This document shows positions 25,339 to 43,122 of a DNA stretch of 64,000 nucleotides, piece by piece. How positions within the stretch are numbered: position 1 is the first letter of the stretch; every line of letters starts with the position of its first letter. The position numbers were made by a program, and so were the translations under genes. Source of the stretch: Mycobacteriales bacterium (GTDB lineage Bacteria > Actinomycetota > Actinomycetes > BP-191); assembly GCA_035714365.1 (NCBI GenBank), contig DASTMB010000037.1, positions 1-64,000 of the forward strand, in the 5' to 3' direction. Below the pieces are notes generated by a model, which saw only the letters and a program-made list of their open reading frames with translations, was not told where the DNA came from and made no database searches.

Positions 25339-27092
25339 GCGGCGTCCCACTCGTCGTCGTCCGCGTCGTGGCGGACGCCCTGGGGATCACTCCGCACCAG
25401 GTCGTCTTCCGCGTCGCTGGCGAGCGAGCGGAACGCGACCCGTTCCCCGCCGCCGCAGAGCAGCGCCTCCCCTTGCTGCGCGTTGAGCAGGAACGCGCAC
25501 TCGCCCTGGGAGAGCCGGAACGCGGTCGCGAGCGCGTCGATCGCCTGCGGCGCCTGCCGCAGCAGCACCTGCGTCGCGGCGTTGCTCACCACCGCGAGAC
25601 CGAGATCGGTGCCGAGCAGGTCGGCGGCGTCCTGCGTGACCACCGTCAACCCGCACCAGTGCTTCCGCGCCGACTTCGCCAGTTTGTAGAGAAACTTCGC
25701 GCCAGCCGGGTCACGCATCAGCAGCCACGCCTCGTCGACGACGACGATCCGCGGCCGGCGGTTCTCCGGGTCGGCGACGGTGCGCCAGATCGCGTCGAGG
25801 GCGAGCAGCGTGCCGGCACTCTTGAGCTCGTCGGGCAGGCTGCGCAGCGAGAACACCCGGAAGTGCCCGCCCGGCGCCGTCGTCGTCGGGCCGTCGAACA
25901 GCAGCCGGTACGCGCCGGTCACGAACGGCGCCAGCCGCTGCGCGAGCGCTCGCGAAGCCTCGGAGCCATCCGCAGTGAGCGCGACGGCCAGGTCGGCGAG
26001 CAGCGGTGGGGGTCGGCGGTGCGTCCGCGGGTCGGCGGTGATGCCCTTCGCGGCGTACGCGGCGAGGATCGCCGTGTCCAGGGCCGCGCGTTCCGCCGAG
26101 GTCAGTGGCTCGTCGAGGAGGACGCCGATGAGGGTGTGTACGAACAGCGCGCGGCGGACGACCGCTTCTGGGTCGCCGTCGCCTGGCAGGTCCAGCGGGT
26201 TGAGTCGCACGCCGGCGGCACCGAGGCGCAGCGTGGTGCCGCCGACCGCGTCCGCGAGCGGCCCGTACTCGTCCTCCGGGTCGACGACGTGGACCTCGAC
26301 GCCGCGGTAGGCCCAGCGCAGCGCGTCGAGCTTCGCCAGGTAGCTCTTGCCGGCGCCGCTTCTGGCGAGGATGACGAGGTTGTGGTTGGGCTGCGCGAAC
26401 CGGTCCCAGCAGACCAGGCCGTGGCTGTGCGCGTTAGTGCCGTAGAGGATGCCGGCGACGTCGGGCAGGTCCGCGCTCACGAGCGGGAACGCGGCGGCGA
26501 GGGCCTCGGTGTCCATCGTGCGGCGCATCCGCAGCAGGTCCAGGCTGAGCGGCAGCGTCGTCAGCCACCCGGCGAGCTGCCGGAACGACGCGGGCGCGGT
26601 GTCCAGCAGCAGCGCGCTGAACAGCGACCGGACTCTGCTTGTCTCCTCGGCGAGCGTGTCCCGGTCGGCGGCGCGGACAGTCGCGTAGAGGCCGACGCTG
26701 AACAACTTGCCTTCGCCGCGGGCGAGCCGCTCAGCGAGGTCCCGCGCGTCCTCCGCGGCGGCGTCGAGCGACGGGTCGGCGAGACGGCCGCGGTCCGCGC
26801 TCAACCGGCGGGACGATTCGAGGCGGCCGAGCTGGCGGCGCAGCCTGTGCGCGGCGAACTGGGTCGGCAGCGGTTCGATGTGCATGGCGACGTCGACCGG
26901 TCCGGTGTAGGTGACGATCGGTTCGAGCCAGCCGCCGCGCACGTCCCGCGGATAGCCGGTCACGGCGAGGGTGGTGCGGTACGAGTCGTTGACCTTCAGG
27001 TCGGCGGCGCTGACTTCGACCGCGTCGAGACCGGGGAGGCCCGCCGGGGCCGCGGGCGGGCGGCGGCGGAGAACGAGCGTCGAGAGGTTCAT
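25335..27092 (-). CDS. VirB4-like ATPase of the type IV secretion system
   Basis: A 585-residue cytoplasmic ATPase. The N-terminal half carries the VirB4 beta domain (PIVTYTGPVDVAMHIEPLP near 58-76). The motor has ARSGAGKSY (Lys249), VVDPEDEYGPLA, Walker B RIVVVDEAWLLM and VTQDAADLLGTDLG, all hallmark VirB4 segments. It powers assembly of the conjugation channel. It is coupled by ATGA to the PrgI-like gene upstream. Confidence 0.9.
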   Translation of the reverse strand: MNLSTLVLRRRPPAAPAGLPGLDAVEVSAADLKVNDSYRTTLAVTGYPRDVRGGWLEPIVTYTGPVDVAMHIEPLPTQFAAHRLRRQLGRLESSRRLSADRGRLADPSLDAAAEDARDLAERLARGEGKLFSVGLYATVRAADRDTLAEETSRVRSLFSALLLDTAPASFRQLAGWLTTLPLSLDLLRMRRTMDTEALAAAFPLVSADLPDVAGILYGTNAHSHGLVCWDRFAQPNHNLVILARSGAGKSYLAKLDALRWAYRGVEVHVVDPEDEYGPLADAVGGTTLRLGAAGVRLNPLDLPGDGDPEAVVRRALFVHTLIGVLLDEPLTSAERAALDTAILAAYAAKGITADPRTHRRPPPLLADLAVALTADGSEASRALAQRLAPFVTGAYRLLFDGPTTTAPGGHFRVFSLRSLPDELKSAGTLLALDAIWRTVADPENRRPRIVVVDEAWLLMRDPAGAKFLYKLAKSARKHWCGLTVVTQDAADLLGTDLGLAVVSNAATQVLLRQAPQAIDALATAFRLSQGECAFLLNAQQGEALLCGGGERVAFRSLASDAEDDLVRSDPQGVRHDADDDEWDAA

Positions 27093-27976
27093 GGGGCACC
27101 GTCCGGGATGCGGGTCGTGGCTCGGTCCGGGTCCGCTGCGGCGCGGAGTTCAGCCGTGGCGGCGGGCTCGTCGAGCGGGGTGAGGGAGATGCCGATCGCG
27201 GCGAGCGCAGCGGCCGCGTCGGAGGCGCGGCGCGCGAGTGCGGCCGCCGTGGTGTCGGTGCGCGGCGCGGGGTCGCGGAAGACGAGCAGGATGCGGCGTC
27301 GTACGACGTCGCGGCGGCCCGCCAACTCGGCGAGGAACCGGGCGTGGTCGAGCGCGGCCGCTTCGAGCATCGGGTCGGCGAGGCTTGCCGCGCCGGTTTC
27401 GATCTCGCGGATCGCACCGTCGAGATTCGTGCGTTCGTCGTGGACGCTGATCTCGACCGGCGTCGACAGGCTGTTGACGAACCGGCCGAAACCGGCGATC
27501 AGCGCGACCTGCTCGTCCTCGGTACGGAGCCGGAAGTTCACTGGCGACACGACGCAGCGCAGCGATGCCCCGTCCGGACCGAGGTCCTGTACGCCGTCGG
27601 CCGCCATGTCCCCGACCGGCAGGCTCAACGCTGCCGGAGGGCGGGACCTGTCGGCACCCCGCGCCCACGCGGGAAGCGCCGGTACGCCATCGGGAGCGGG
27701 GACGAGGCGCCGGGGTGCGCCGACGTAGCGGAGTACGGCGAGCGCGAACCGGTCCGCGCCGAGACCGTGCCAGCGGCCGACCGCGAGAGTGACCGACGCC
27801 GCGGCGACCGGCAGGGCGAGGAACCCGAACACCGTGGGCGGCACCAGGTGCCGGGTCGCGGTGAACAGCAGCCACAGCGCGACGGCCGGCACTGCGACCA
27901 GACCGAGCTGCCGGGCGGTCAGCCCGGCGACGAGCGTGTCGTCGCGGTCGACGTCGGCGGGGATGCGAGCCCACAT
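27089..27976 (-). CDS. PrgI-like membrane protein of the transfer channel
   Basis: A 295-residue protein starting at the ATG that shares a base with the upstream stop (TGATG). Residues 1-85 follow the PrgI pattern (MWARIPADVDRDDTLVAGLT, then two membrane helices near 22-38 and 44-60). The soluble C-terminal part (about 100-295) has FRLRTEDEQVALIAGFGRFV and ISVHDERTNL, usual in actinobacterial transfer proteins. It corresponds in place to VirB3. Confidence 0.8.
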   Translation of the reverse strand: MWARIPADVDRDDTLVAGLTARQLGLVAVPAVALWLLFTATRHLVPPTVFGFLALPVAAASVTLAVGRWHGLGADRFALAVLRYVGAPRRLVPAPDGVPALPAWARGADRSRPPAALSLPVGDMAADGVQDLGPDGASLRCVVSPVNFRLRTEDEQVALIAGFGRFVNSLSTPVEISVHDERTNLDGAIREIETGAASLADPMLEAAALDHARFLAELAGRRDVVRRRILLVFRDPAPRTDTTAAALARRASDAAAALAAIGISLTPLDEPAATAELRAAADPDRATTRIPDGAP

Positions 27977-29319
27977 CAGGACGGCACCTGCCACCGCTGG
28001 CGCGGGTTGCGCCACCGGTCCAGCGACGACACCCCACCGTCAGTGGACGGTCGAGCAGCCGGCGCACCGCGCGGCATCGGGGGCGCAGTGGGGAACGTTG
28101 GGCGGGTCGACGGCGACCACACATTCGGCGGAGCGAACTCACCGCTGGTGGCAGCGGCGCTCGGTGCGGCCGAACGTGCGGCGCGCGCGCCGCGGCCAGC
28201 GACGCCGGCGGCGGCGAGCCCGGCGGGGCCGGCGACCGCGCCGATCGCGCGGCTGATGACGAGGTACTTCACGACCCGGCCGATGCCGCCCGTGCCAGCC
28301 CGCATCAACAGACCGCGCCCGACCCAGCTCGGGATCTTCACCAGCACCCACAGCAGGGCGATGACCACAAGCAGGTCCATCAACGGACCGCCCGGAACGC
28401 CGAGCGACGGGCTGCCGACCCCGTCGTAGAACATCCGCGTCGCGGTCGCGAGCACGAGCGCCTGCGCGACCTGGATAGCAAGCGCCGCGCACAACGCCCG
28501 GCACCACACCCGCGCCAGGCCCTCAGTCGCCGGCAGCGCCAGCCCGGCCAGGCACAGCGGCGCACCGACGGTGAGCACCACGACCAGGCCGAGGCGCAGG
28601 ACGCCGACGACCGTCACGTAAAGGGCGAGGACGACCACGACCAGGCCGAGCAGGATCGCGAGGGTGCTCGACTGCGACGTAAGCAGGTTCACCCGGAATA
28701 AGCCGGTGCTGACCTCACGCTGGTCGAGGCGCTGACCGTAGAACGCGCCCGATAGGGCGTTCGCGAAGCCGATCGCGACGTCGACGAGTTGCAGGCTCAG
28801 GTTCGCGCCGACGAACCCGGCAATGACACGGGGCAGCGCGTCCTTCACCGCGTACCGCGACTGCACCGTCTCGTAACCCATGAGGGTCAGTCCGGCGATC
28901 GTGACCAGCAGCACGAACAGCGCGACGGCGATGCCACGTGAGATCGACCACACCTCGCGCACCGGCGGGTGCGCGGACACGTCCGGCGTCCCCCACACCG
29001 TGTCGTGCATCAGTCGCATCGACGGCTTGAGCGCCCCGTCGACGAGCGTGCGGAAGAAGCTGGTGACGCCCTCCGAGACCTTGCACTTCACGTCCACGAG
29101 ACCGCAGCCGCCACCGTCGTCCTCGTCGCCAACCAGCGACGGGGACAGGGACGGCGTCACAGTTGGCACGACGGAGGGAGACGGTGACGGCGTACTCGAC
29201 GGGACCGGGGTCGGCCGCGGCTCGGCGTACGCCGGCCCGGCCGCAGCTGAGACGAGCAGCCACACGCCCGCGGCGAGCGACACAACGCAGCCGCAGACCA
29301 GCAGCCGATGAACGTTCAC
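27976..29319 (-). CDS. TrbL/VirB6-like channel protein
   Basis: A 447-residue protein. A signal peptide (1-32) is followed by a Pro/Ser-rich extracellular linker, then CGLVDVKCK. At least six membrane helices lie between 125 and 375 (VALFVLLVTIAGLTLMGY; LAILLGLVVVVLALYVTVVG; LLVVIALLWVLVKI). The C-terminus is cytoplasmic and Pro-rich. Such polytopic proteins make the inner-membrane pore of type IV systems. It is coupled to the pilin-like gene by ATGA. Confidence 0.85.
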   Translation of the reverse strand: MNVHRLLVCGCVVSLAAGVWLLVSAAAGPAYAEPRPTPVPSSTPSPSPSVVPTVTPSLSPSLVGDEDDGGGCGLVDVKCKVSEGVTSFFRTLVDGALKPSMRLMHDTVWGTPDVSAHPPVREVWSISRGIAVALFVLLVTIAGLTLMGYETVQSRYAVKDALPRVIAGFVGANLSLQLVDVAIGFANALSGAFYGQRLDQREVSTGLFRVNLLTSQSSTLAILLGLVVVVLALYVTVVGVLRLGLVVVLTVGAPLCLAGLALPATEGLARVWCRALCAALAIQVAQALVLATATRMFYDGVGSPSLGVPGGPLMDLLVVIALLWVLVKIPSWVGRGLLMRAGTGGIGRVVKYLVISRAIGAVAGPAGLAAAGVAGRGARAARSAAPSAAATSGEFAPPNVWSPSTRPTFPTAPPMPRGAPAARPSTDGGVSSLDRWRNPRQRWQVPS

Positions 29320-31439: not shown

Positions 31440-32602
31440 TCACGACACGGTGGTCGCGCCAACGACGGCCCCTAGTTGGTAGCGCCCGAAGAACACCTCG
31501 TTGAAACAGTCGTGACTGCGCAAGACGCCGCGGACCTTGGTTTCGCCGCACGCGACACGCAGCGGTGGCAAGGCCGTGGCGAGCTCGCGGGCCGACTGGT
31601 GACCTCGCGGTGGTCGTGCGAGGAGGTGCGCACAGGCTCGGGTGAGGACGAGGCTCGGGTTCACCTGTTCCGCGAGGGCGTCCCAGGCAGGTACCAACGG
31701 CGCCGCGGCGAGAGACCGGCGATGTGCCTGAGTCTGCTCGACGGCGACGTCACTGAGGACGCGCAGCGTCGCGGAGAGATCGTTGCGTAGCTTGCGCGTG
31801 TGCTCGGGCGTCCACCTGGCGAGCAGGTATCCCAACGCGAGCGCGAGCGGTATGCCTAGCCACGGCGCGTCTGTGACGAGCCGCCTGGCAGCACGCGCTA
31901 ACCCGTGACCGGCCAAGCCGCCGACGAGCGTTGTCGTATAGAGCAGTTCGCCCAGCTGCCCGGCGTCGCCGCACGCGACGAGAACTTGGAGCCATCGGAC
32001 GTGCTCGACGAAGTCGTGGTCGTGGCCGTACACCGCGTGCACGGCGCGACGGTCCTTGCTGAGGTAGAACGCCTCGAGCAGCAGGGCGAGAGTCGCCGAG
32101 GGGACATCGTCGGGGTCGACGCCGCGGAGCCGCTCGATACGTGCGGCCTCGTCAGGGTGAAGCAGGCCTTCTGGAACGGAGACAACGCGCAGCAGAGGCA
32201 CGTAGTTGGCGCGCCAGCAGTCGACGAACGCCGCCGTCGTAACCGGGCCGTCGGCAGTCCATTCCGCCGCATGCTCCTCGATCTCATCTATGACGTGGTT
32301 GGCGCAGTAGAGGCGGACTGCGCCGGTGTTCGCCGCGTTGACCAGGACGGTCCGTCGCTGGTTGCGGCAGGCGTAGAGATGTCTCCGCGAAGCTCGTTGG
32401 CATCAGGCACCACCGGGACAGCCGGCCATAGCTGTTCTGGGAACGCGCCGTTCTCGTCAGCGCCACGGATCGGATCGTTACTGCTGCGGTCGTGCGCGAG
32501 TCGGAGCATCGCCTTGATCGGGAACGCTCGTCCGTCACCGGCTCCAACCAGCATCCGGTCCGAGGACGGATGGTCAGGCACCGTCACTGTCGATCGAGCC
32601 AC
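31440..32602 (-). pseudogene. PIN-domain nuclease-like protein broken by a 2-base frameshift
   Basis: From the GTG at 32602 the frame gives VVPDANELRGDI, the first acidic strand of a PIN domain. At about 32375-32379 it shifts: RTVLVNAANTGAVRLYC, HVIDEIEEHAAEW, DPDDVPSATLALLL and LSKDR follow in the next frame. Removing a TC from the repeated TCTC would join them into one protein of about 386 residues with all four PIN acids (Asp, Glu, Asp, Asp). A C-terminal part (WLGIPLALALGYLLAR) may be a membrane helix. PIN domains cut RNA in toxins and defence. The gene is last in the island operon. Confidence 0.7.
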
Positions 32603-33546
32603 TGCTCGACCTCACGTAGTGCGTTGTACCAGGCGACTTGCGGGCCGAGATGGGAGAGGCCGACACCCGCGGGCGGCATGGCATAGGGAAAGCGGCCTTC
32701 GGCGAAGATCATCGCGTACTGCTCCTCCACGGACGGCACAGGCCCGTCCCCGATGGGGTAGGCGAGCTCGACCTCATACATGCCCGTGAAGCTCGCGCTC
32801 GGCGCGTCGTCGCGTGTGCTAGGCCAACGCTTCACCCGGGCAACGTGGCGGTAATGGCGTCGGAGTTCGTCACCAAGTCGAGGCAGGCCGTCGTCCTCGA
32901 CGATGACCCAGCGCGGTTCGTCACGGCCAAGATCGAGCTGGGCGATCTCCCGCAGTCGTGTGCCCATCGCGCGGTGTCGGGCCCAGAGCCGGTTCGCGAT
33001 CGTCACGAGCGGCGGGTACGGGTGTTCCAGGTCGAAGACCAACTCGACGTCGAGCTCAGGGTGGTCGCCGATCAGGAACGATCCGGCCGCCTCGAATTCC
33101 TGCGGGTCCATCGCGGCGATGTCGGCATCGCGGTCGGCGATCATGCCGGGCATCGCCGACTCGTAGGCGCGCCAGCGCCTCGCCAGCCATGCCACAAGGG
33201 TCAGCTCTTCGATCTCGTGTAGGTGTCGCGCGTCGAAGCGCAGGAGGCCGAGGAACGCGGTCGCACATAGGAGGTTCTTGTCGAACATGTGCGGGTCAGG
33301 CTCGCCCTCGTCGAACTCGACGGCGAACAGCGGCCGGTGCGTCGCCGCGTCGTGGACTACGAAGTCGAAGGTCTCGACCGGCACGATCGGGGCGGCGCGG
33401 TCGAGGCGACCGCGGTCGGAGGGTTCGAGGCCGAAGACGGCGGACAACGCTACGTGAGTGTTGATGATGCAGCCGTGAGCGAGCTCGGTGTCAATGAGAG
33501 TGTGGACCCGTCGTTGATCGTCGGACGCGAACTCGCGGAGGTACAT
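32584..33546 (-). CDS. DUF2726-like predicted nuclease
   Basis: A 320-residue protein from an ATG with AGGGAG upstream. Residues 57-105 read VETFDFVVHD, PLFAVEFDEGEPDPHMFDKN and LLRFDARH. This is the DUF2726 pattern (FDFV...AxExD...KxxLC...LLR), a restriction-enzyme-like fold with Asp61, Glu77 and Asp79 as candidate metal ligands; the usual His after the acids is shifted. The C-terminal 200 residues have no match I recognise. It lies 28 bases after the 283-aa gene and overlaps the PIN gene, so it belongs to one operon. A nuclease role is inferred. Confidence 0.65.
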   Translation of the reverse strand: MYLREFASDDQRRVHTLIDTELAHGCIINTHVALSAVFGLEPSDRGRLDRAAPIVPVETFDFVVHDAATHRPLFAVEFDEGEPDPHMFDKNLLCATAFLGLLRFDARHLHEIEELTLVAWLARRWRAYESAMPGMIADRDADIAAMDPQEFEAAGSFLIGDHPELDVELVFDLEHPYPPLVTIANRLWARHRAMGTRLREIAQLDLGRDEPRWVIVEDDGLPRLGDELRRHYRHVARVKRWPSTRDDAPSASFTGMYEVELAYPIGDGPVPSVEEQYAMIFAEGRFPYAMPPAGVGLSHLGPQVAWYNALREVEQWLDRQ

Positions 33547-33574
33547 GGGTCTCCCTGTCGGTCGTGCGACTCAG

Positions 33575-34426
33575 TCACCGGGTGCGGTCGGCTCCGGGCT
33601 CCGACCGCTCCGAACCAGGCTCGTGTAGCGCAACGAAGGCACCGACCGCGCCCTCGAACGCGTTCATCGCTCGTTGGGTGGCGGCGATCAACGCGGTCGG
33701 GTTGCTCCGCACCAACGCCTGCGCTCGATCAGTCTCGTCTAGGTCCGCGACCTGCTGGGCTCCTTGCACTGTTGCCCACTGCTTGCCGTGGGCGTAGCCG
33801 GAGTAGAGGCGGTACACGAAGGAACCCTTGCTGCCCGGCTTGGTCGGCTCGAACCGATCGAACAGCTCGATGACGCTCGGCATCGGGACGGCTAGCACCT
33901 GAGCGTTCTTCTTGTTGAGCTTTGTCATCCCGCGTCGCTGCGCCTCGGAGAACAGGTCGTCGTACCGCTCGGCCGCCGTCTTTGCACGTCCGGTGAGCTT
34001 CGTGACGCCGAGGGCTGCTTCGAGCTTGCGGCGTTCGTCGTAGTCGTCGAGTTGCGCGGCGAGGCCGCGGGCGGCCCGGTCCGCGACCGTCGGCACGGGT
34101 TCGAGGAGCCACAGCGCGGAGAACGCCGCCTCGTGCGCGACGCGGCATAGGGAGACAAAGGCGAAGCTCGGAACGATACGTGCGTCGGCCACGAGCGCCC
34201 GCCATGCGGCGAGGTGGTCGGCGGCCGCGACGATGAACGTTGCGGCCAGGTCGTAGGCGAGCGCGGCGAGCTCGTCGGCACGGTCGCTCGCTGCGGCGCT
34301 CGCCGGATCTGTGGTGGAGGTGACAATCTCCGTGAACGCGTTCCGGAGCGGCTCAAGCCGCGATAGGTCATTCAGCACCACGGATACGACCTGCGGCGAC
34401 GTCCAGTATGTCGCCCCCGCCGTCAC
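33575..34426 (-). CDS. Unknown protein of the island operon, possibly HEPN-like
   Basis: A 283-residue, mostly helical protein starting at a GTG that overlaps the stop of the 1436-aa gene (GTGA). Segments such as CRVAHEAAFSALWLLEPV near 93-110, AQLDDYDERRKLEAALGV near 123-140 and FVYRLYSGYAHGKQWA near 213-228 recall DUF5677/HEPN-related helical bundles, in which a His near the end of the bundle is important. The canonical Rx4H is not clear here. It probably forms a complex with the large protein upstream. Confidence 0.55.
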   Translation of the reverse strand: MTAGATYWTSPQVVSVVLNDLSRLEPLRNAFTEIVTSTTDPASAAASDRADELAALAYDLAATFIVAAADHLAAWRALVADARIVPSFAFVSLCRVAHEAAFSALWLLEPVPTVADRAARGLAAQLDDYDERRKLEAALGVTKLTGRAKTAAERYDDLFSEAQRRGMTKLNKKNAQVLAVPMPSVIELFDRFEPTKPGSKGSFVYRLYSGYAHGKQWATVQGAQQVADLDETDRAQALVRSNPTALIAATQRAMNAFEGAVGAFVALHEPGSERSEPGADRTR

Positions 34427-37400
34427 GATGACTCGCCGTCGACACGTTCTGCGTCGACCGTGCGGCGTGACCAACTGCTGGGCGTGGGCAGGTTGGCGTT
34501 GATGACGACGACGAGGACGAGTGACGGGTGTGCCGGGTCCGTCAGACCGTGGGCGGCGGGCTGCATGAGCCAGACGTGGTTCTCCAGTGCGCCGGGCGGC
34601 GCGGCCTTCGCGGACAGGTCGAGGACACAGAGGATCGACAGTCGCTTTCCGCCGCCGGTGGCGTACTGAGTCGGCTGGCCGAGGTAACGGTGGCAGTTGT
34701 CCGCTGTGACAGGCGTCTTGCGCTCGACCTTGAGTTCAGCGGTGACGCCGTCGTGGTCGAGGTCGAGGTAGCCGAGCGCACGCGGATCGTTGCGGGTGAG
34801 CCGGCCTCCGAGCCGCGAGTCGGCCCGCAGGCGCGCTTCGAGGTCGTCGTGGAACTGCCGCTCCGTGACGCGGGTGCCGCGCTTGTAAGTCGCGTCGAAC
34901 TGGATCCTCTCGGCGGCGGTAACGATGGCGGTAAACAACCGGGCGGTCGCTTGGATGTCGTCGTCCGGGAGTTCGCGGCCGTGCAGACGCGCGTAGAGGT
35001 CGAGCAGTCGAGCGTCGACGGACGGGTAGTCGGTGAGCATGTCGCGGGTCGGATCGAACGGGCGCAACGCCAGTTCGGGATGTCCCGCGATCTTCGCCAC
35101 GGCGACTCGCTCGCGTTCTCCGGCGACCTCTGGCGGTCCGGCGAAGCGCGCGGCGATACGTACGGTCTGCGGGGGCCGGCCGGGCGCTAGCCGGAAGCGG
35201 AGAACCAGCGTGCCCGAACCTGACGCAGCGTATCCACCCGTCGTGGAAGGCGTGGGGCGCGGGAACGAGAAAGAAGGCAAGGTGAGGTCGCTCTCGCGGA
35301 GCACGGTGAGCATCTCGATGTCGAGGCGCTCAGCCCACTCGGGCCACGAACTCGCCCGGACGTCGAGGCGGAGCTCGTATGCCTGGTCGGGGTGAAGGAC
35401 CTGGGCGTGGTTCACGCAGGGCTGGTCGTCGATCGAGGCGAGTACCACCAGCACGCCGTCATCAGTCTTCGGTATCGACCGTTCTGGCAGCCGGGACGAC
35501 ACGAACGGCGGTGGCGGAGAGGTGACAGGCCCATCGACGGCACGGACCGGAACGGCGATCGCGCGGATCGCCGCAAGGACGGCGGACATTGGCGGCGTGC
35601 CCATCGCGAGCTCGCCGAGCAGCCCTCGCAGCGCGTCGATACTTCCGCCGCCGGGCGTGCGCTGGTCGAGGCGTTCAACGGCGACTTCGGCGCGGCGACA
35701 GGCGGCTGCCTTTAGCGCGTCGTGACTGTCGCCTCCGGTCACGCCGCGTTGCAGCGCAGCATCAGCTCGAACGGTCAGGACAGCGATGTCCACCACGTCA
35801 GCGAGCGTGGCGATGACGTGGCCGCTCGGGGAATCGTCGACGGTGCGGCGTAGCTTCCCGGTCGCGTCGGTCAGAGCGGCAGCCACAGCGTCGAGTTCGT
35901 CCGGCGAGAGCCCAGGTCCGGCGGTGTCGATGGCAGCGAGCAACTCGACCCGGGCGTCGGCGAGGTCGGCCAGGCGATCGACGGCGCCGTAGGAGTGGTT
36001 CATCTTGTCACGGTTGCGGACCGCGACGACCACGTCCCGAACCGCATCCGCCGCCGCCGCAATCGCCTCCGGATCGGTCGCGACAGCCACTTCGAGCGCG
36101 GTCGCGGCGCGGATCGCCGCGGCGGCCACCCGGCGGCTGGCGAACTCGGTGGTGGCCGGCAGCGACTGCTCGTGTGCCTCGGCGAGCGTCGCGGCGTCGG
36201 CGAACCGTCCGTGATGGGTGAGGACCTCGACGAGTTCCGCGGCCTTCCCGGGCCACGGGTGGTTGTCGACGACGGCCCGGAACGCGTCGAGCGACACCTG
36301 CGCGGTGCCAGTGCACCGTTGCAGCGCAATGAGCAGCTTCCGGTCGTCACGACGGTCGCCGTGCCGGTCGCGATCAAACGCCTGAAGGCACAGCTCGGCG
36401 TACCGCCGGCTCCGCCGGAGGACATCGGGCCAGTCGCGGTCCAACTGCCAGATCAACTTGTACGGGTGCAGGTTCTTGCACGCGTCGAGCGCGACCGCGA
36501 AGCCGTACAGCCGTTCGTGCCCTCTCGCCCGCGCAGAGATCCGGAAGAGGGCGTTGATCGCCGAGTCGAGGTCCAGGTTGTGCTCGCCCGGCGCGCTCCG
36601 GCATACCGCGACGGCCCACCGGAGGGCGACACCGATATCCTCGTCGCGTAACGGCAGCCGAGAGAACGTGTGCAGCAGCGCGGAGACGACCCCGACAGTC
36701 GCGTCACCGAGCAGGACGGGCATGCAGTCGGCGAGCGTCGTCGGCAGCGGCTGAGCGGAGTGCGTGAGCTCGGCCCACGCGGTAAGACCAGCCATCCGCA
36801 GACGCACCGATGTCCCCAGCAGAGCCGAGTAGACCTCGGGAAGGACGCGGCGCAGCAGTCCCGGCTCGGCCGGATGGTCACGGCCGAGCTCGCCGAGCAG
36901 TTCGATGAGTTCGGCCCGCAGGTTCTCGTCGTGCTCCAACAGAGGATCGGTGGCGTCCTCGCCAGGAGGTGGCATGGGCGGGTCCGCGTCGAGGATCGTG
37001 AACGCGGCGTCAGCGACCGGAGTCGGGTTGATCGAGGCGAGAGCGCGCAAGCTGCGGCGGAGCGTGCGTCGCCTGCTGCTCTCGCCAGTCGACTTCGCAA
37101 GGGCATCGAGCGCCGCCATCCACGGGTCCTGACCAGCGACGATCGGTCCGGCCGGTGCGACGGTCGGTGGGGCGAGCAGGGCTCCGAACAGCGCGTCGAT
37201 CTGGTTTCCGAGAACGGCGGGGTGGTCGCCAGCGAGCCGTTCGAGAGTCGACGTCGCATCCGTCGTCACCTCGAGTCCCCACGTGCCGTCGATCTTCGTC
37301 AGGGCTGCGGTGAACAGGGTGGACGCGGCGGTTGTCACCTCGGCGGCGGTGAGGCGCGCACGCCACGACGTGAAGTCGCCGATGTCGTCGACGGGATCAG

Positions 37401-38733
37401 GGCCCGGCGGGTCGTCGGGGGACGGCTCGCTCGGTTCGGCGCGCAGGTTGTGAGCCGCTTCGGAGACGACCGCGAACAATCTGGCTCGCACGTCATCGTC
37501 GGCGGCGGGATCGGCACCACGATGCTCGATCAGCGCCGCGAGGGACGGCCGGCGTTGCAGCATGACCGCGAGCGTTTCGGTGATCTCGGACACCGGCGAG
37601 ATGCCGTAGTCCTCGGAGTCGGGAACGGTCACCGCGGCTAGCAACTGTTGTTCGAGGACCGGCGCGATATCCGGGAACTCATCGAACAGAACGCGGCTCG
37701 CGACCGCCGCACTCGCCCGCTCGTGGTCGGTTGCGGGGGTTGACCGTCGGGTGGGGAAACCGGTCGGCAGGATCAGCTCAGTAGGAGGTGCCGGCGCCGG
37801 GATCGCGAGCATCTCCTCGACGACACTGAGGACGACTGGCAAGTTGAGCTTCGCTGCCGCGAGCAGCCCTGCGGGGTCCCGGACCCGGCCGCGGCTGAGC
37901 TCGCCGGCGAGACCATGAAGCTTCGGCGTACCTGCGAGGAAGATCAGTGAGCGCGCTACGTCGGGCGTCACATCATCCGGACGAAGCTCGGTGGCGAGAT
38001 CCGCGACCGCGCGGGCCGCGTCCGGCCCGGCGTGCTGGCCGCGCAGGTGGTCCAGTGCCGCATCCAGGACGGCACGTGAAGCAACCGTTCCTGTGCGGGC
38101 GAGCGGGCGCAGTACGCCGAACAGATCGCTCTGCCCGGCCCGTGTGACTGCGAGTACCTCATCGACCGCGGCCTCGGTGAACACCTCCGGCGCGCTGCGA
38201 GCCAGCTCGGTCAGCCGGGCGAGCGCGTCCGACCGCCCACCAGCATCACTGTCGACGGGCTGGTCGACGAGCGACAGATCGTCCAGGACGCGCGCCGCCG
38301 TTACAGGCTCCAGGGCCGCGAGCGCCGAACGGGACCGTGCACGCTCCGCTGCTGCGGCCTCAGCGGCCTCGGCCTGAGCGGCGGCAAGTCCGCGGCTGCG
38401 CGCCGACTCAGCCTCGATTTCCGCGACGTAGGTGGCGAGGTTCGGCACATCGCGCGGCTGCCGAAATGGGCACCCTCGGCAGTTCGCGTTGTAGAACTCG
38501 ATCGCGAGCGATCGCAGCTCCGAGCCAGCCGTCGTTGGTGCCGGCGCGTGGTCGCAGTGGATCATCCGCATGTTGATCGGCAGACCGGACATCGCCTCGG
38601 CCATGCCGCGGCCGCCCATCGGCGCCAGCTCGAACCGGAAGTGCGCGCAGTGCGCCTCGGCAAGGTCGATGATCTGCTGGTTGGCGCGGCCGAACTCCAG
38701 CGCGTGCGTCATGGAATCGGCCGATCGGCGCAC
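34423..38733 (-). CDS. 1436-aa protein: Cys cluster, helical repeats and a C-terminal PD-(D/E)XK-like nuclease
   Basis: The GTG at 38733 has AAGGAGG seven bases upstream. The N-terminal 90 residues carry Cys29, His/Cys60 and CRGC (Cys85, Cys88), a possible Fe-S or zinc site. Residues 110-1050 are helical and Ala/Leu/Asp-rich, with repeats of 35-45 residues like HEAT or ARM arrays. Near 1165-1215 is a beta-rich part. At the end, ERQFHDDLEARL precedes YLDLDHDGVTAELKVERK (Asp1324-1328, Glu1333, Lys1335), a D...ExK nuclease core. I know no family with this arrangement. A sensor-nuclease of a defence operon is my inference. Confidence 0.7.
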   Translation of the reverse strand: MRRSADSMTHALEFGRANQQIIDLAEAHCAHFRFELAPMGGRGMAEAMSGLPINMRMIHCDHAPAPTTAGSELRSLAIEFYNANCRGCPFRQPRDVPNLATYVAEIEAESARSRGLAAAQAEAAEAAAAERARSRSALAALEPVTAARVLDDLSLVDQPVDSDAGGRSDALARLTELARSAPEVFTEAAVDEVLAVTRAGQSDLFGVLRPLARTGTVASRAVLDAALDHLRGQHAGPDAARAVADLATELRPDDVTPDVARSLIFLAGTPKLHGLAGELSRGRVRDPAGLLAAAKLNLPVVLSVVEEMLAIPAPAPPTELILPTGFPTRRSTPATDHERASAAVASRVLFDEFPDIAPVLEQQLLAAVTVPDSEDYGISPVSEITETLAVMLQRRPSLAALIEHRGADPAADDDVRARLFAVVSEAAHNLRAEPSEPSPDDPPGPDPVDDIGDFTSWRARLTAAEVTTAASTLFTAALTKIDGTWGLEVTTDATSTLERLAGDHPAVLGNQIDALFGALLAPPTVAPAGPIVAGQDPWMAALDALAKSTGESSRRRTLRRSLRALASINPTPVADAAFTILDADPPMPPPGEDATDPLLEHDENLRAELIELLGELGRDHPAEPGLLRRVLPEVYSALLGTSVRLRMAGLTAWAELTHSAQPLPTTLADCMPVLLGDATVGVVSALLHTFSRLPLRDEDIGVALRWAVAVCRSAPGEHNLDLDSAINALFRISARARGHERLYGFAVALDACKNLHPYKLIWQLDRDWPDVLRRSRRYAELCLQAFDRDRHGDRRDDRKLLIALQRCTGTAQVSLDAFRAVVDNHPWPGKAAELVEVLTHHGRFADAATLAEAHEQSLPATTEFASRRVAAAAIRAATALEVAVATDPEAIAAAADAVRDVVVAVRNRDKMNHSYGAVDRLADLADARVELLAAIDTAGPGLSPDELDAVAAALTDATGKLRRTVDDSPSGHVIATLADVVDIAVLTVRADAALQRGVTGGDSHDALKAAACRRAEVAVERLDQRTPGGGSIDALRGLLGELAMGTPPMSAVLAAIRAIAVPVRAVDGPVTSPPPPFVSSRLPERSIPKTDDGVLVVLASIDDQPCVNHAQVLHPDQAYELRLDVRASSWPEWAERLDIEMLTVLRESDLTLPSFSFPRPTPSTTGGYAASGSGTLVLRFRLAPGRPPQTVRIAARFAGPPEVAGERERVAVAKIAGHPELALRPFDPTRDMLTDYPSVDARLLDLYARLHGRELPDDDIQATARLFTAIVTAAERIQFDATYKRGTRVTERQFHDDLEARLRADSRLGGRLTRNDPRALGYLDLDHDGVTAELKVERKTPVTADNCHRYLGQPTQYATGGGKRLSILCVLDLSAKAAPPGALENHVWLMQPAAHGLTDPAHPSLVLVVVINANLPTPSSWSRRTVDAERVDGESS

Positions 38734-38993
38734 TGAGCACCTCCTTCACTCAGTATGCGGCGGGGGTGTGACAACGTCGTCCACTCCCCCCGGCGGATTG
38801 CCGGCTGCCGTTTGGCGGCGCGGTGCTTTACGGCGCGTGCTGGGTCGCGAGAGCCCGTAGTGTCGTCTGCTTCGATGCAGCCGTGCGGGCTGGCACCGTG
38901 AAGGAAGCCGGGCGCGCGGGCGTCGATCTGATCGCCCTCGACCGGACTGATCTTCGGCCGGCGCCCACACAGCGCTAATGAGATCGTCAGCGA

Positions 38994-40181
38994 GTGCCAC
39001 TGATGGACGGGGATAACCTGCCGACCGATGCCGCCGGCGCTGTCTTCGGTCTGACCTCGCCGGCACCGCGCGATGAGACCGTCGTGGTCGACGGCGGGAC
39101 AGTCTCGCTGCGCGCGGGGCGATCGACGCTCGCCGTCGCCGGGGCGGGCGGCCGCGACCACCGCGAATCGGTCGACGCGGCGGTCGATGTTGCGGAGCGG
39201 GCACTCGATTTGCTCTGCTACCGGCGCGGCGTGGCCCTTGCGGTCCCGGACCCGTACGACGAACACATCGCCTGGCTGCCGAGTGCCGCTGGTGTGCACA
39301 TGGTGCTCACCACGCTCGCGCCGCTGTCCGCGGCCGTCTCGGCAACCGCGGAAGTACACGATGCCCACGGACGCAGAAAGCCATCGGCGCCGCGGCCGGC
39401 CACGCAGTGGGACGCGTCGCTGCGTTACTTCCGTGCGTCGCAGCTCGCCGCGACCCTCAACGACTCGTACCGGTCGCTGTGGCTTGCCGTCGAGTCTCTG
39501 CTCGACGTTGTGCTGCCGTACACGACGGGCGGCGAGTCGACGTGGGTGAAGGACGCGTTTGCTGCTGCTGGCGTCGCGGGCATCGACGTCCTACGGGGCG
39601 TGCCGAGACGCGCCGTCACGCCCAACGCCGCCAAGGCGGCGTACCGCTACTTCTACGACAGCCGCCGGAACCTGCTCTTCCACTCCAAGCGCTCGCGTGG
39701 CTCGCTCAGTCGCCGGTCCGAGGCACAGCACCGCGACCTCGAAGAAGCACTCGCGGCACTGGCAGTGCTCTATGCCGACCTCGGTCAACAGATCACGGGT
39801 GAGCACCGTCAGACGAGCGGCATGACGTACGTCGGATTCGACAACATCGGGGACGGGATCGAGGCAGCGGGCGCCACGATGTTCCTCCTCGACGAGGAGC
39901 CGCAGCCGGACGACATCGCGTTCACACTCGGTGCCCGCGCCGCCGCCTCTGGGATGGCACAGGCACCGGCCCCCGAGCGTGAGCCGGGGTTCGTCACCTA
40001 CACCGCGTCGGATCTACGCCCCACCGCGCCATTCCAGATCGTCGCGGTGACCGCCGGCCACCGACAGGCTGTTGCCGCCCGGTTCCTTGGCCGCGTCGAC
40101 GCGTCAGATGTAAGCCGCGTCGATGTCCGCCTGAGGCATCGGTTGAGTAACGCCGGCACGAGAGATCGCTTCGCCCACTAG
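38994..40181 (+). CDS. HEPN-motif protein, 395 aa
   Basis: Begins at GTG 38994 (ATG at 39003 possible), divergent from the 1436-aa gene. The C-terminal half is helical with SYRSLWLAVESLLDVVLP near 158-175 and the sequence RNLLFH at 225-230, which is the Rx4H signature of HEPN RNases. RGSLSRRSEAQHRDLEEALAALAVLYADL completes the bundle. The N-terminal 140 residues are beta-rich and may sense a ligand. HEPN proteins act as RNases in toxin-antitoxin and phage-defence systems. Here it may be the effector of the neighbouring operon or an independent gene. Confidence 0.65.
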   Translation: MPLMDGDNLPTDAAGAVFGLTSPAPRDETVVVDGGTVSLRAGRSTLAVAGAGGRDHRESVDAAVDVAERALDLLCYRRGVALAVPDPYDEHIAWLPSAAGVHMVLTTLAPLSAAVSATAEVHDAHGRRKPSAPRPATQWDASLRYFRASQLAATLNDSYRSLWLAVESLLDVVLPYTTGGESTWVKDAFAAAGVAGIDVLRGVPRRAVTPNAAKAAYRYFYDSRRNLLFHSKRSRGSLSRRSEAQHRDLEEALAALAVLYADLGQQITGEHRQTSGMTYVGFDNIGDGIEAAGATMFLLDEEPQPDDIAFTLGARAAASGMAQAPAPEREPGFVTYTASDLRPTAPFQIVAVTAGHRQAVAARFLGRVDASDVSRVDVRLRHRLSNAGTRDRFAH

Positions 40182-40408
40182 GAGCCGAGCTGCTCGGCAT
40201 GGCTTCGACTGCAGGGGTTAGATCCTTCCGCGCGCGACCCTGGACGTCACCGCACCCCCGTCCTCGAGGTCCGCAACCTCACGGAGCCAACGCGTCGGGC
40301 ATCCGCGACCTCGCGTAAGGCACCGGCCCGCGGGACGTGTAGAGGGCGCAGCGCCGGCCGTGGCCTGCCGGCCGGGCGGCTGTACCGCCCCACTCGCCAG
40401 GAGCTCCC

Positions 40409-40975
40409 ATGAAGATCCACCACGTCATTGCCGTCCCGCTCGTCGTGCTCGGACTGTTCGCGCCGTCCGCAGACGCCCGCGAGAACCGGCACCCCTGCCG
40501 CGGCCCGAGGGACAGCTACTGCTACATCCCCGGGATCAACCGTGACTGCGACTTCTACGTCGAGGTGCAGGGCAGGCTCGTCCACTGCGGGCCGCAGTCC
40601 TATTACTTCTACAAGGGCGCCTTCGTCCTGGCCGGGCTCGCGGAGATGGCGCCGGGGCTTGGGCAAGCCGCGACATTCGAGTCCGTCCACTGGACGTTCG
40701 AGCTCGCCGGCCTCGCGTCGGAGTGCGTGTTCGACGGTGGCAGTACGGGGCCGGAGACGCTGCTGAACGGGGAGGGCTCCGGGATAGTGTCGGGCTGCAG
40801 CGGGGCCTCGATCTCCGGGACGTTGGCGTACGTCCGGCAGGGCACGGCGATGACGGTGTCCGGCACGTGGACCGTCGAAGGGGTGGCCGGTCCGGTCACG
40901 GGGGCCTGCGAGCTCGCGCCGACGTCGGTGAACCCCGCCACGTCGTACAGCCTCGAGTGCGCCGTGGTGATCTGA
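40409..40975 (+). CDS. Small secreted protein with a CDFY motif, paralogue of 57344-57934
   Basis: A 188-residue exported protein starting at ATG after CAGGAG. A signal peptide covers 1-24 (PLVVLGLFAPSADA). The mature part has cysteine-rich GPRDSYCYIPGINRDCDFY and VHCG near 32-60, then a beta-rich region with paired cysteines (SECVFDGG, SGCSG, GACEL). The other copy in this window shares the layout: signal peptide, RxCDFY, a Cys, a beta domain, and SGxLAYxRQ. These are probably surface or exported proteins held by disulfides. The function is unknown. It lies 230 bases after the HEPN gene. Confidence 0.7.
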   Translation: MKIHHVIAVPLVVLGLFAPSADARENRHPCRGPRDSYCYIPGINRDCDFYVEVQGRLVHCGPQSYYFYKGAFVLAGLAEMAPGLGQAATFESVHWTFELAGLASECVFDGGSTGPETLLNGEGSGIVSGCSGASISGTLAYVRQGTAMTVSGTWTVEGVAGPVTGACELAPTSVNPATSYSLECAVVI

Positions 40976-41041
40976 TCTCCTCCAGACATCGGGTGGTCCC
41001 GGTGTCGGTGACGCCGGGACCACCCTGTCCACTGCGGCTTC

Positions 41042-41330
41042 CTAGTACCGCCAGAGCTCCGCTCCGCCGGGATCCACCAGTCGTGCTGGCCGACGCGCTC
41101 CCAGCCGACGTAGTTGGAGCCGACGACCCAGACGTGGCCGCCGCCGTAGTTGCGCATGACGATCGCGGTATGCGGGCTGCCGGTCTGGATGATGTCGCCG
41201 GGCCGAAGCGCGTTCACGTCCCAGAGGCGCATCGCGCCGGACGCGGCGTACCCGTAGCGGGCTGTCGGGTACTTGGCAGTCCGGCACGGTGTCAGCGCCC
41301 GTAGATGGCGCCTGGTCCAACAGTCTCAAC
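41042..41330 (-). pseudogene. C-terminal remnant of a secreted CHAP/NlpC-type amidase
   Basis: One minus-strand frame gives PCRTAKYPTARYGYAASGAM, WDVNALRPGDIIQTG, HTAIVMRN, HVWVVGSNYVGW and HDWWIPA. The block has the PGD...HtaIV order of CHAP-like cell-wall peptidases. The expected ending ELWRY and a stop lie in another frame, separated by a tandem GCGGA repeat at about 41055-41064; dropping one copy restores the end. The 5' catalytic cysteine region is not recognisable. I treat it as a decayed gene at the island edge. Confidence 0.55.
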
Positions 41331-41449
41331 ACCACGAGCCAGGCTGTGCTGAAAGGACCTCACAGGTCTGCACATCGGGTTCCGCTACTTGTGGTCGCTG
41401 ACCGGCAGCATCCGTGCCGTTCAATCGAGCGGGGAGCGTGCCGGGAAAT

Positions 41450-42949
41450 TCATGCCGGGGCTACCACCTCGTTGCCGGCCGACGGGCTGTACGGAGCGAG
41501 ATGGCGCACGGCGCTACGTGGACGATCAGCCGAGCTAGTAGCACCGATGCGTGCCAGCTCGCTCCGCCACGCATCGCGCCAGACTTGTCTTGTTGCCTCG
41601 TCCGCCAAACTCGAGTCGACCCCGTCATCGCTGCCGAGCGGCCATAACGGCTCGGCCCTCGCGGCGAGGCAGATGCGCATTAACAGGCTGCGACGTACTA
41701 GATCGCGCAGTCGGTCCACCAGGTAGCCCAGGGCGATCCCGTACATCTCCTCCGTCGGCACCGTGGACAGCGCGTACACCTTCCTCCGAAGGGCCTTGTG
41801 CGTGAGGCTGCCCCCGTGAACGAGCGTGGAACGCAGGTCGTAGAGCACTTTGATGTCGTCGAAGATCGCCGTCGCCGGGTCGCGCTCCGTGACGAGCAAC
41901 GCCGCCGCTCGGTTGCAGAGGCGGAGGGTGACGTCGGTGGTCGCCGCGCCGGACAAGGCGGCTTCGAACGCTGTACTGAGGTCAACGACCTGCTCGTACC
42001 AGGCGTGGGCATGGTAGGAGAGCACGAACTTCTGCATGGCCATCACAAATGACGTGAACGCCATCCCCGGTTGGTCACGCTTGGCGGCGTTGATGAGCTG
42101 ATGCAGCCCGGTGAACCGGCTGTCGTCCTCAGACGTGATGGCAGTCTCGCGTCGAAGCATCTGGGTGCGTGACGTGATGGAGTGATCGCCGCGGAAGCGT
42201 TCGAGCGTCGGTCCGTGCTCCCGAACCGGGGCGGTCTCGCCACGAACCTCGAACAGCGAGTCGCTGGTGCCGGCGTGTAGCAGACGAAGGGCCAGCAGGA
42301 AGTCTTCGATCTTGCCGGACGCCAGAGCAGACGCGTCGAACGGCCTCTTGCCCTGTTCTCGCACTACGACGACCGACTCGGGCGGTCCATACACGAGCGG
42401 GTACTGGCGACCGAAAGCGCTGTCGGCGCCGGGTATCACGTCTCTGATGATCGAGAACACGTCGCTGCGCGGATCCCGCGCGATGGGCTGCACGGTCACG
42501 CCTGCGACATCGACGGGACCACCCGTCAAGGTCGTGAGGTGGGTCACGACGCGGCAGCAGGCCACCTGACGCTCGACGGTCTTGAGGGCCTCCTTCAGCG
42601 CGGAGACAGCGCGGTCAACCGCGGCGGCAGTCGTGGAGAACGCTTCGCAATCAAGCGTGAGTTCCGCGATCGCCGTCTCAAGGAAGCTATAGACGTACTG
42701 CCCGGCGAACGCCCTCTCCGGGAGAGGGGTGTCGTCGCCAAACCGAGGATGAGCCGCAGTGATCGCCGATTCCAGCGCTTTGTACTCCGGCAGGTGGTCG
42801 AGACCGCGCCCGAAGTAATCGGTGCCGACCTGGAGGAACGGGTGAAACCTCGGTGGGGGCACGACGTGTTGGGCTTCCAGCCCGTCCCAGGCGGCGGCGA
42901 GGAACTCCCGAGCGCGCTGGTCCAGGTCGGGGTGTTCGGCGGAGTCCAT
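41450..42949 (-). CDS. Apea-type HEPN protein, 499 aa
   Basis: The ATG at 42949 has GAAGGTG at -7 and is preferred to the upstream GTG. The N-terminal 300 residues (CEAFSTTAAAVDRAVSALKEAL and others) are mixed alpha/beta. From about 310 the sequence follows ApeA-like HEPN proteins: YEQVVDLSTAFEAALSG, LRLCNRAAALL, and DLRSTLVHGGS with RSTLVH (373-378) as the Rx4H RNase signature. ApeA-type proteins defend against phage by cutting tRNA or other RNA. The gene stands alone, convergent with the remnant, just before the core genome. Confidence 0.75.
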   Translation of the reverse strand: MDSAEHPDLDQRAREFLAAAWDGLEAQHVVPPPRFHPFLQVGTDYFGRGLDHLPEYKALESAITAAHPRFGDDTPLPERAFAGQYVYSFLETAIAELTLDCEAFSTTAAAVDRAVSALKEALKTVERQVACCRVVTHLTTLTGGPVDVAGVTVQPIARDPRSDVFSIIRDVIPGADSAFGRQYPLVYGPPESVVVVREQGKRPFDASALASGKIEDFLLALRLLHAGTSDSLFEVRGETAPVREHGPTLERFRGDHSITSRTQMLRRETAITSEDDSRFTGLHQLINAAKRDQPGMAFTSFVMAMQKFVLSYHAHAWYEQVVDLSTAFEAALSGAATTDVTLRLCNRAAALLVTERDPATAIFDDIKVLYDLRSTLVHGGSLTHKALRRKVYALSTVPTEEMYGIALGYLVDRLRDLVRRSLLMRICLAARAEPLWPLGSDDGVDSSLADEATRQVWRDAWRSELARIGATSSADRPRSAVRHLAPYSPSAGNEVVAPA

Positions 42950-43122
42950 GGGCACCTTCGTGTCGGCGGGCACACCGTCGCTATACGCGTGCCGGCAGTC
43001 GTCGCGGTCAAACGGGATGTACGTCGCGGAACACCTCGCGACCCCCGCTGGGCCGCCGCGGTGCTCAGGGTGCGCAAGCTACCCGCCGCATGGCAACAGT
43101 CATGGCACGAACTGCCCGTGTG

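Follow-up and report, generated by a model that had tools for sequence, protein, structure and literature searches.

A candidate single-protein defence nuclease with a HEAT-like solenoid in a variable region of a Mycobacteriales genome

Four tightly packed genes on the minus strand of a Mycobacteriales contig raise the question whether they form one defence system, as proposed in an earlier note made from the sequence, or whether the largest of them, which encodes a protein of 1436 amino acids (P0001), works on its own. We analysed the whole stretch of 64,000 nucleotides, which will be referred to as the window; its features are collected in Table 1. The described operon was borne out as far as the open reading frames and their overlaps are concerned. 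The stop codon of P0001 overlaps the GTG start of the downstream gene in the sequence GTGA, P0002 and P0003 are separated by 28 nt, and P0003 overlaps the start of the PIN gene at 32602. Counted from the GTG that overlaps the P0001 stop, P0002 has the 283 amino acids given previously. The PIN gene, however, cannot be read through in a single frame: VVPDANELRGDI belongs to ORF 32288-32602, and the remainder, with YACRNQRRTVLVNAAN, continues in a second frame that ends at 31440. The switch between the two is located near 32350-32370 and reflects either a genuine mutation or an error in the sequencing.

Table 1. Features of the locus, with positions in the window.
Feature	Position	Strand	Basis
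Fused scaffold-nuclease gene (P0001), 1436 aa	34423..38733	-	Conserved unit; full-length relatives and split relatives
N-terminal Cys domain, residues 23-100 (C29, C60, C85, C88), probable metal site	38434..38667	-	Cys invariance; putative metal binding
HEAT-like helical solenoid, residues 101-960	35854..38433	-	AlphaFold, Foldseek, HEAT Pfam traces in relatives
Ig-like beta-sandwich, residues 1094-1225	35059..35454	-	AlphaFold strands, pLDDT mostly >80; Foldseek Ig-like matches
Predicted PD-(D/E)xK nuclease, C-terminal, residues 1291-1412 (D1324, E1333, K1335, Q1353, Y1357)	34498..34863	-	Motif, alpha/beta order, dN/dS
Gene after P0001 (P0002), 299 aa as longest ORF	33575..34474	-	Weak DUF5677 match; not a conserved partner
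DUF2726-like gene (P0003), 320 aa	32584..33546	-	Not a conserved partner
PIN-domain gene, interrupted by a change of reading frame	31440..32602	-	ORF frames; one homologue in L020
Remnant common with congener G297: end (~25 codons) of a nuclease-like ORF plus the DNA after it	38896..39025	+	91-92% identity to L052
Flanking protein P0005, 395 aa, RNLLFH	38994..40181	+	No family match
Flanking protein P0006, 507 aa, RSTLVH	41450..42973	-	phrog_28161 match only

The architecture of P0001 was derived from two AlphaFold models. Residues 1-960 were modelled as the Cys domain followed by a helical solenoid (pLDDT 80.7), for which Foldseek returned CAND1, importins and SF3b, all of them HEAT solenoids, as best matches; HEAT Pfam traces were also detected in relatives of P0001. 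The long helical repeats noticed from the sequence were thereby confirmed, and the four-Cys N-terminal cluster and the D...ExK motif, noticed likewise, proved to be invariant in full-length relatives. The four cysteines are unchanged in 14 sequences from two phyla and probably bind a metal. Residues 945-1436 were modelled as helices, a beta-sandwich and an alpha/beta domain (pLDDT 76.5). Within the alpha/beta fold lies the conserved PD-(D/E)xK signature, present in P0001 as D1324...E1333-L-K1335; the core D-ELK-QxxxY is kept in full relatives, and the five residues listed for this domain are invariant over 14 nuclease domains, one of which belongs to a Lamassu LmuA (L012). Foldseek with the C-terminal model returned no nuclease, and profile searches of the PDB, run with alignments of the C-part and of the nuclease, yielded no relative. 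The C-terminus is nevertheless predicted to be a PD-(D/E)xK nuclease on the basis of the motif, the strand order and homology to LmuA: used alone as query, it matched positions 516-654 of the LmuA model PDLC03853 (E 1e-12), which a relative of P0001 matched with 2e-15. Comparison of two Streptomyces copies gave dN/dS values of 0.21 overall, 0.25 for the solenoid and 0.06 for the nuclease. Judged by these values, purifying selection acts strongly on the nuclease, the constrained, putatively catalytic part, and the solenoid is the faster-changing, sensor-like part.

Full-length P0001 had no match in Pfam, NCBIfam or the PDB, and as a single-sequence query it had none among genome contigs and viral sequences. 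Searching phage and plasmid sequences with tblastn revealed no full relative, only a decayed copy of the nuclease domain on a megaplasmid of Rhizobium sp. WSM1274 (L005:10001-10375). The matches H3 (R. anhuiense) and H4 (P. caribensis) turned out on inspection to be unrelated. When an alignment of the two nuclease domains was used as query, 18 related loci were obtained in other genomes. Actinobacterial relatives are single fused genes of ~1404-1436 aa, found in Streptomyces, Gandjariella, Pseudofrankia, Mycobacteroides and Blastococcus, and the full-length ones (L017, L019-L023) share 32-36% identity with P0001 over the full length. At six proteobacterial loci (L027-L032) the equivalent consists of two overlapping genes encoding ~860 and ~490 aa. 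The S. aurantiogriseus relative is divided into two ORFs near this natural junction; a broken gene was seen in Curtobacterium and at L024. In Streptomyces sp. TRM64462 the same fused gene and neighbourhood occur on two contigs (L017, L018), either as a duplicate or as an assembly artefact.

The split gene pair was also found on two IMG/VR contigs that are near-identical to each other (L054, L055). There it is flanked by amidase/PAAR-like and terminase-like genes, and terminase-, repressor- and primase-like genes were recognised by eye on L054; the pair is likely prophage cargo. No member of the family was detected in either of the two other genomes of the window's genus that were compared, or in nearly all genomes sampled. 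The family is scattered among bacteria, and only the large protein is conserved as a unit. Conservation of the large gene and its motifs across Actinobacteria and Proteobacteria goes beyond chance.

In a raw tally of neighbours, known defence genes were encountered repeatedly within 10 kb of P0001 relatives: GajA and GajB of Gabija (L030), a SIR2/Dsr1-like protein (L024), JetA of Wadjet with 770 bits (L023), pPIWI_RE (L016, placed by means of its contig coordinates) and AbiEi/AbiEii, which inspection of the sequences attributes to L032. Neither the JetA nor the pPIWI_RE model matched any of 14 control genomes. Some relatives stand without a recognised defence neighbour. Wall-type proteins of L024 and of the window, the latter ~8 kb away, resemble each other; as their orientation differs, we take this as coincidence.

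This context, together with the two IMG/VR contigs, supports the earlier view of the large protein as a defence nuclease with a scaffold or sensor part. Because P0001 joins a scaffold to a predicted DNA-cutting end and its relatives stand repeatedly beside known anti-virus systems, we consider it probable, at roughly two chances in three, that it is a stand-alone anti-phage (or anti-mobile-element) scaffold nuclease. The Cys domain and the ~850-residue HEAT solenoid would serve as sensor and scaffold and keep the C-terminal nuclease inactive. Upon recognition of an invader component the solenoid would be reshaped or would oligomerise, and the nuclease would then cut DNA; in Proteobacteria the equivalent machine would be made from two overlapping genes. 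Most likely this would be a sensor-scaffold nuclease following a Lamassu-like logic, with the Cys/HEAT part of the same chain as sensor. Metal binding, catalysis, trigger, target and defence activity are what we infer for P0001, and the outcome would be either destruction of the invader or abortive infection with death of the cell. The natural occurrence of fused and split forms makes the coupling of sensor and effector testable.

The alternative that survives best is that P0001 represents Olokun, a known system, in a one-gene form with OloA and OloB fused. The PADLOC models match the split relatives strongly, OloA (PDLC03925) the N-part with E 3.5e-50 to 5e-63 and OloB (PDLC03926) the C-part with ~5e-42. 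The order in which the fragments match is the expected one, no match is obtained with shuffled or reversed controls, and the split genes are adjacent, as are OloA and OloB; some sequences of the split-pair type are therefore probably among the inputs of the Olokun models. Against this, P0001 of the window itself is matched weakly (OloB 8.8e-9, OloA 5.2e-4), and the proteins scoring best with OloA and OloB (540-620 bits; L003, L034, L038, L039) differ in architecture, having an N-terminal nuclease-like region. Between them and the P0001 family blastp gave no match and hhalign a probability of at most 1%, and for this reason P0001 was not filed as Olokun. The models match two protein pairs without mutual homology (L003, L034, L038-L041) and appear to be mixtures of two families. 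A search of the literature yielded no usable text on the domain content of Olokun. P0001 may work like Olokun, from which it is set apart by the comparison with the best matches of the PADLOC models; that it is Olokun in fused form we regard as a possibility of about one in three. This widely used model thus seems to merge two unrelated pairs, and surveys of genomes may be counting two different systems as Olokun.

A housekeeping role in DNA repair or genome maintenance is unlikely. HEAT repeats and nuclease domains are known in repair proteins too, where they also occur in combination, and L027 adjoins SbcC/SbcD-like genes, as judged by eye. Nevertheless, the sporadic presence of the family, its mobile-element and defence-island context and its carriage on viral contigs speak against such a role, and no conserved repair neighbour was found.

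What remains is the proposal that P0001, P0002, P0003 and the PIN protein constitute one defence system. The small proteins of the window were compared with the 18 related loci by tblastn and phmmer. Homologues of P0002 and P0003 were found at none of them, and a PIN homologue at one (L020), where it is encoded on the opposite strand at a distance of two genes and outside any operon; an all-against-all comparison of the neighbours of P0001 relatives likewise gave no conserved partner. Proteins like P0002 and P0003 stand alone elsewhere, on plasmids. They resemble the DUF5677 and DUF2726 families, respectively, by weak Pfam matches that fall below the cut-offs. For P0003 the DUF2726 match in Pfam is weak (E 0.017), but a full-length homologue with 32% identity is annotated as DUF2726. 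The genome-neighbourhood comparison, for which lack of conserved co-occurrence had been named beforehand as the refuting outcome, thus found no conserved co-occurrence of the four genes. Although the tight overlaps, including GTGA, suggest co-transcription and a PIN homologue lies near the L020 relative, the four-gene system is rejected as highly improbable since P0002 and P0003 accompany none and PIN only one of the 18 related loci, and the PIN reading frame is broken. P0002, P0003 and the PIN gene are best read as separate cargo of the same variable hotspot.

Comparison with two congeners illustrates this variability. Both have DNA in common with the window from 43085 rightwards. One of them is nearly empty here, an acyl-CoA dehydrogenase-like gene and a PIG-L-like gene lying near each other. 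The other (L052) carries a nuclease-like ORF whose start resembles an integrase, along with two TIR-like proteins (L052 11477-13511). These gene contents were read by eye. The remnant at 38896-39025 is 92% and 91% identical to L052 10381-10458 and 10537-10590; its reading as an integrase end was dismissed, as it is the tail of the nuclease-like ORF with the integrase-like start. The differences between the congeners and the common remnant place P0001 in a turnover hotspot; positions 38896-43085 of the window mark a site of integration in this genus. The first 19.9 kb of the window had no counterpart in either congener, and conjugative-element-like genes were noted by eye in positions 1-30000, for example at 27089-28015 and 27976-29319. 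The flanking proteins P0005 and P0006 had been taken for HEPN proteins. Their RNLLFH and RSTLVH strings are indeed present, but neither protein matched a HEPN family, and the sole family match of P0006 is phrog_28161 (E 8e-5), a phage family without assigned function. No homologue of P0006, and at a threshold of E 0.01 none of P0005, was found beside P0001 relatives. As both lie beyond the remnant common with the congener, they are probably a module separate from the P0001 operon.

It had been stated that no described system contains this set; parts of the P0001 family are, however, recognised by the PADLOC Olokun models and the Lamassu effector model. We tentatively propose, at somewhat less than even odds, a defence family that has not been described in this role. 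Its members would be nucleases with a HEAT solenoid and a Cys sensor at the N-terminus, all in a single protein, but made as two subunits in Proteobacteria. The family would have its nuclease in common with the effectors of Lamassu and, contrary to the database label, would not be related to Olokun proper. With Olokun it shares the combination of a large helical-repeat protein and a nuclease, its split relatives scoring strongly on both models. It differs in being fused, with the nuclease at the C-terminus and no relation to the best-fitting OloA and OloB; the two-gene OloA-OloB layout is not found in the window, where there is one fused ORF, and two genes occur only in proteobacterial relatives.

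Lamassu employs diverse effectors that are activated by a sensor (PMC10586767). The likeness of P0001 to LmuA lies in a homologous C-terminal PD-(D/E)xK domain, and the match to PDLC03853 and the alignment with LmuA of L012 mark it as an LmuA-type effector domain. At L012 and L015 a Lamassu-like locus consists of an SMC-like gene and an LmuA that combines helical repeats with a nuclease at its C-terminus; a protein bearing an IAHAG motif comes next. P0001, in contrast, has no SMC-like LmuB beside it in the window and no conserved neighbour at related loci, and carries the HEAT solenoid and the Cys domain in the same chain. One nuclease module would thus be placed on two different sensors, a HEAT solenoid in P0001 and an SMC protein in Lamassu.
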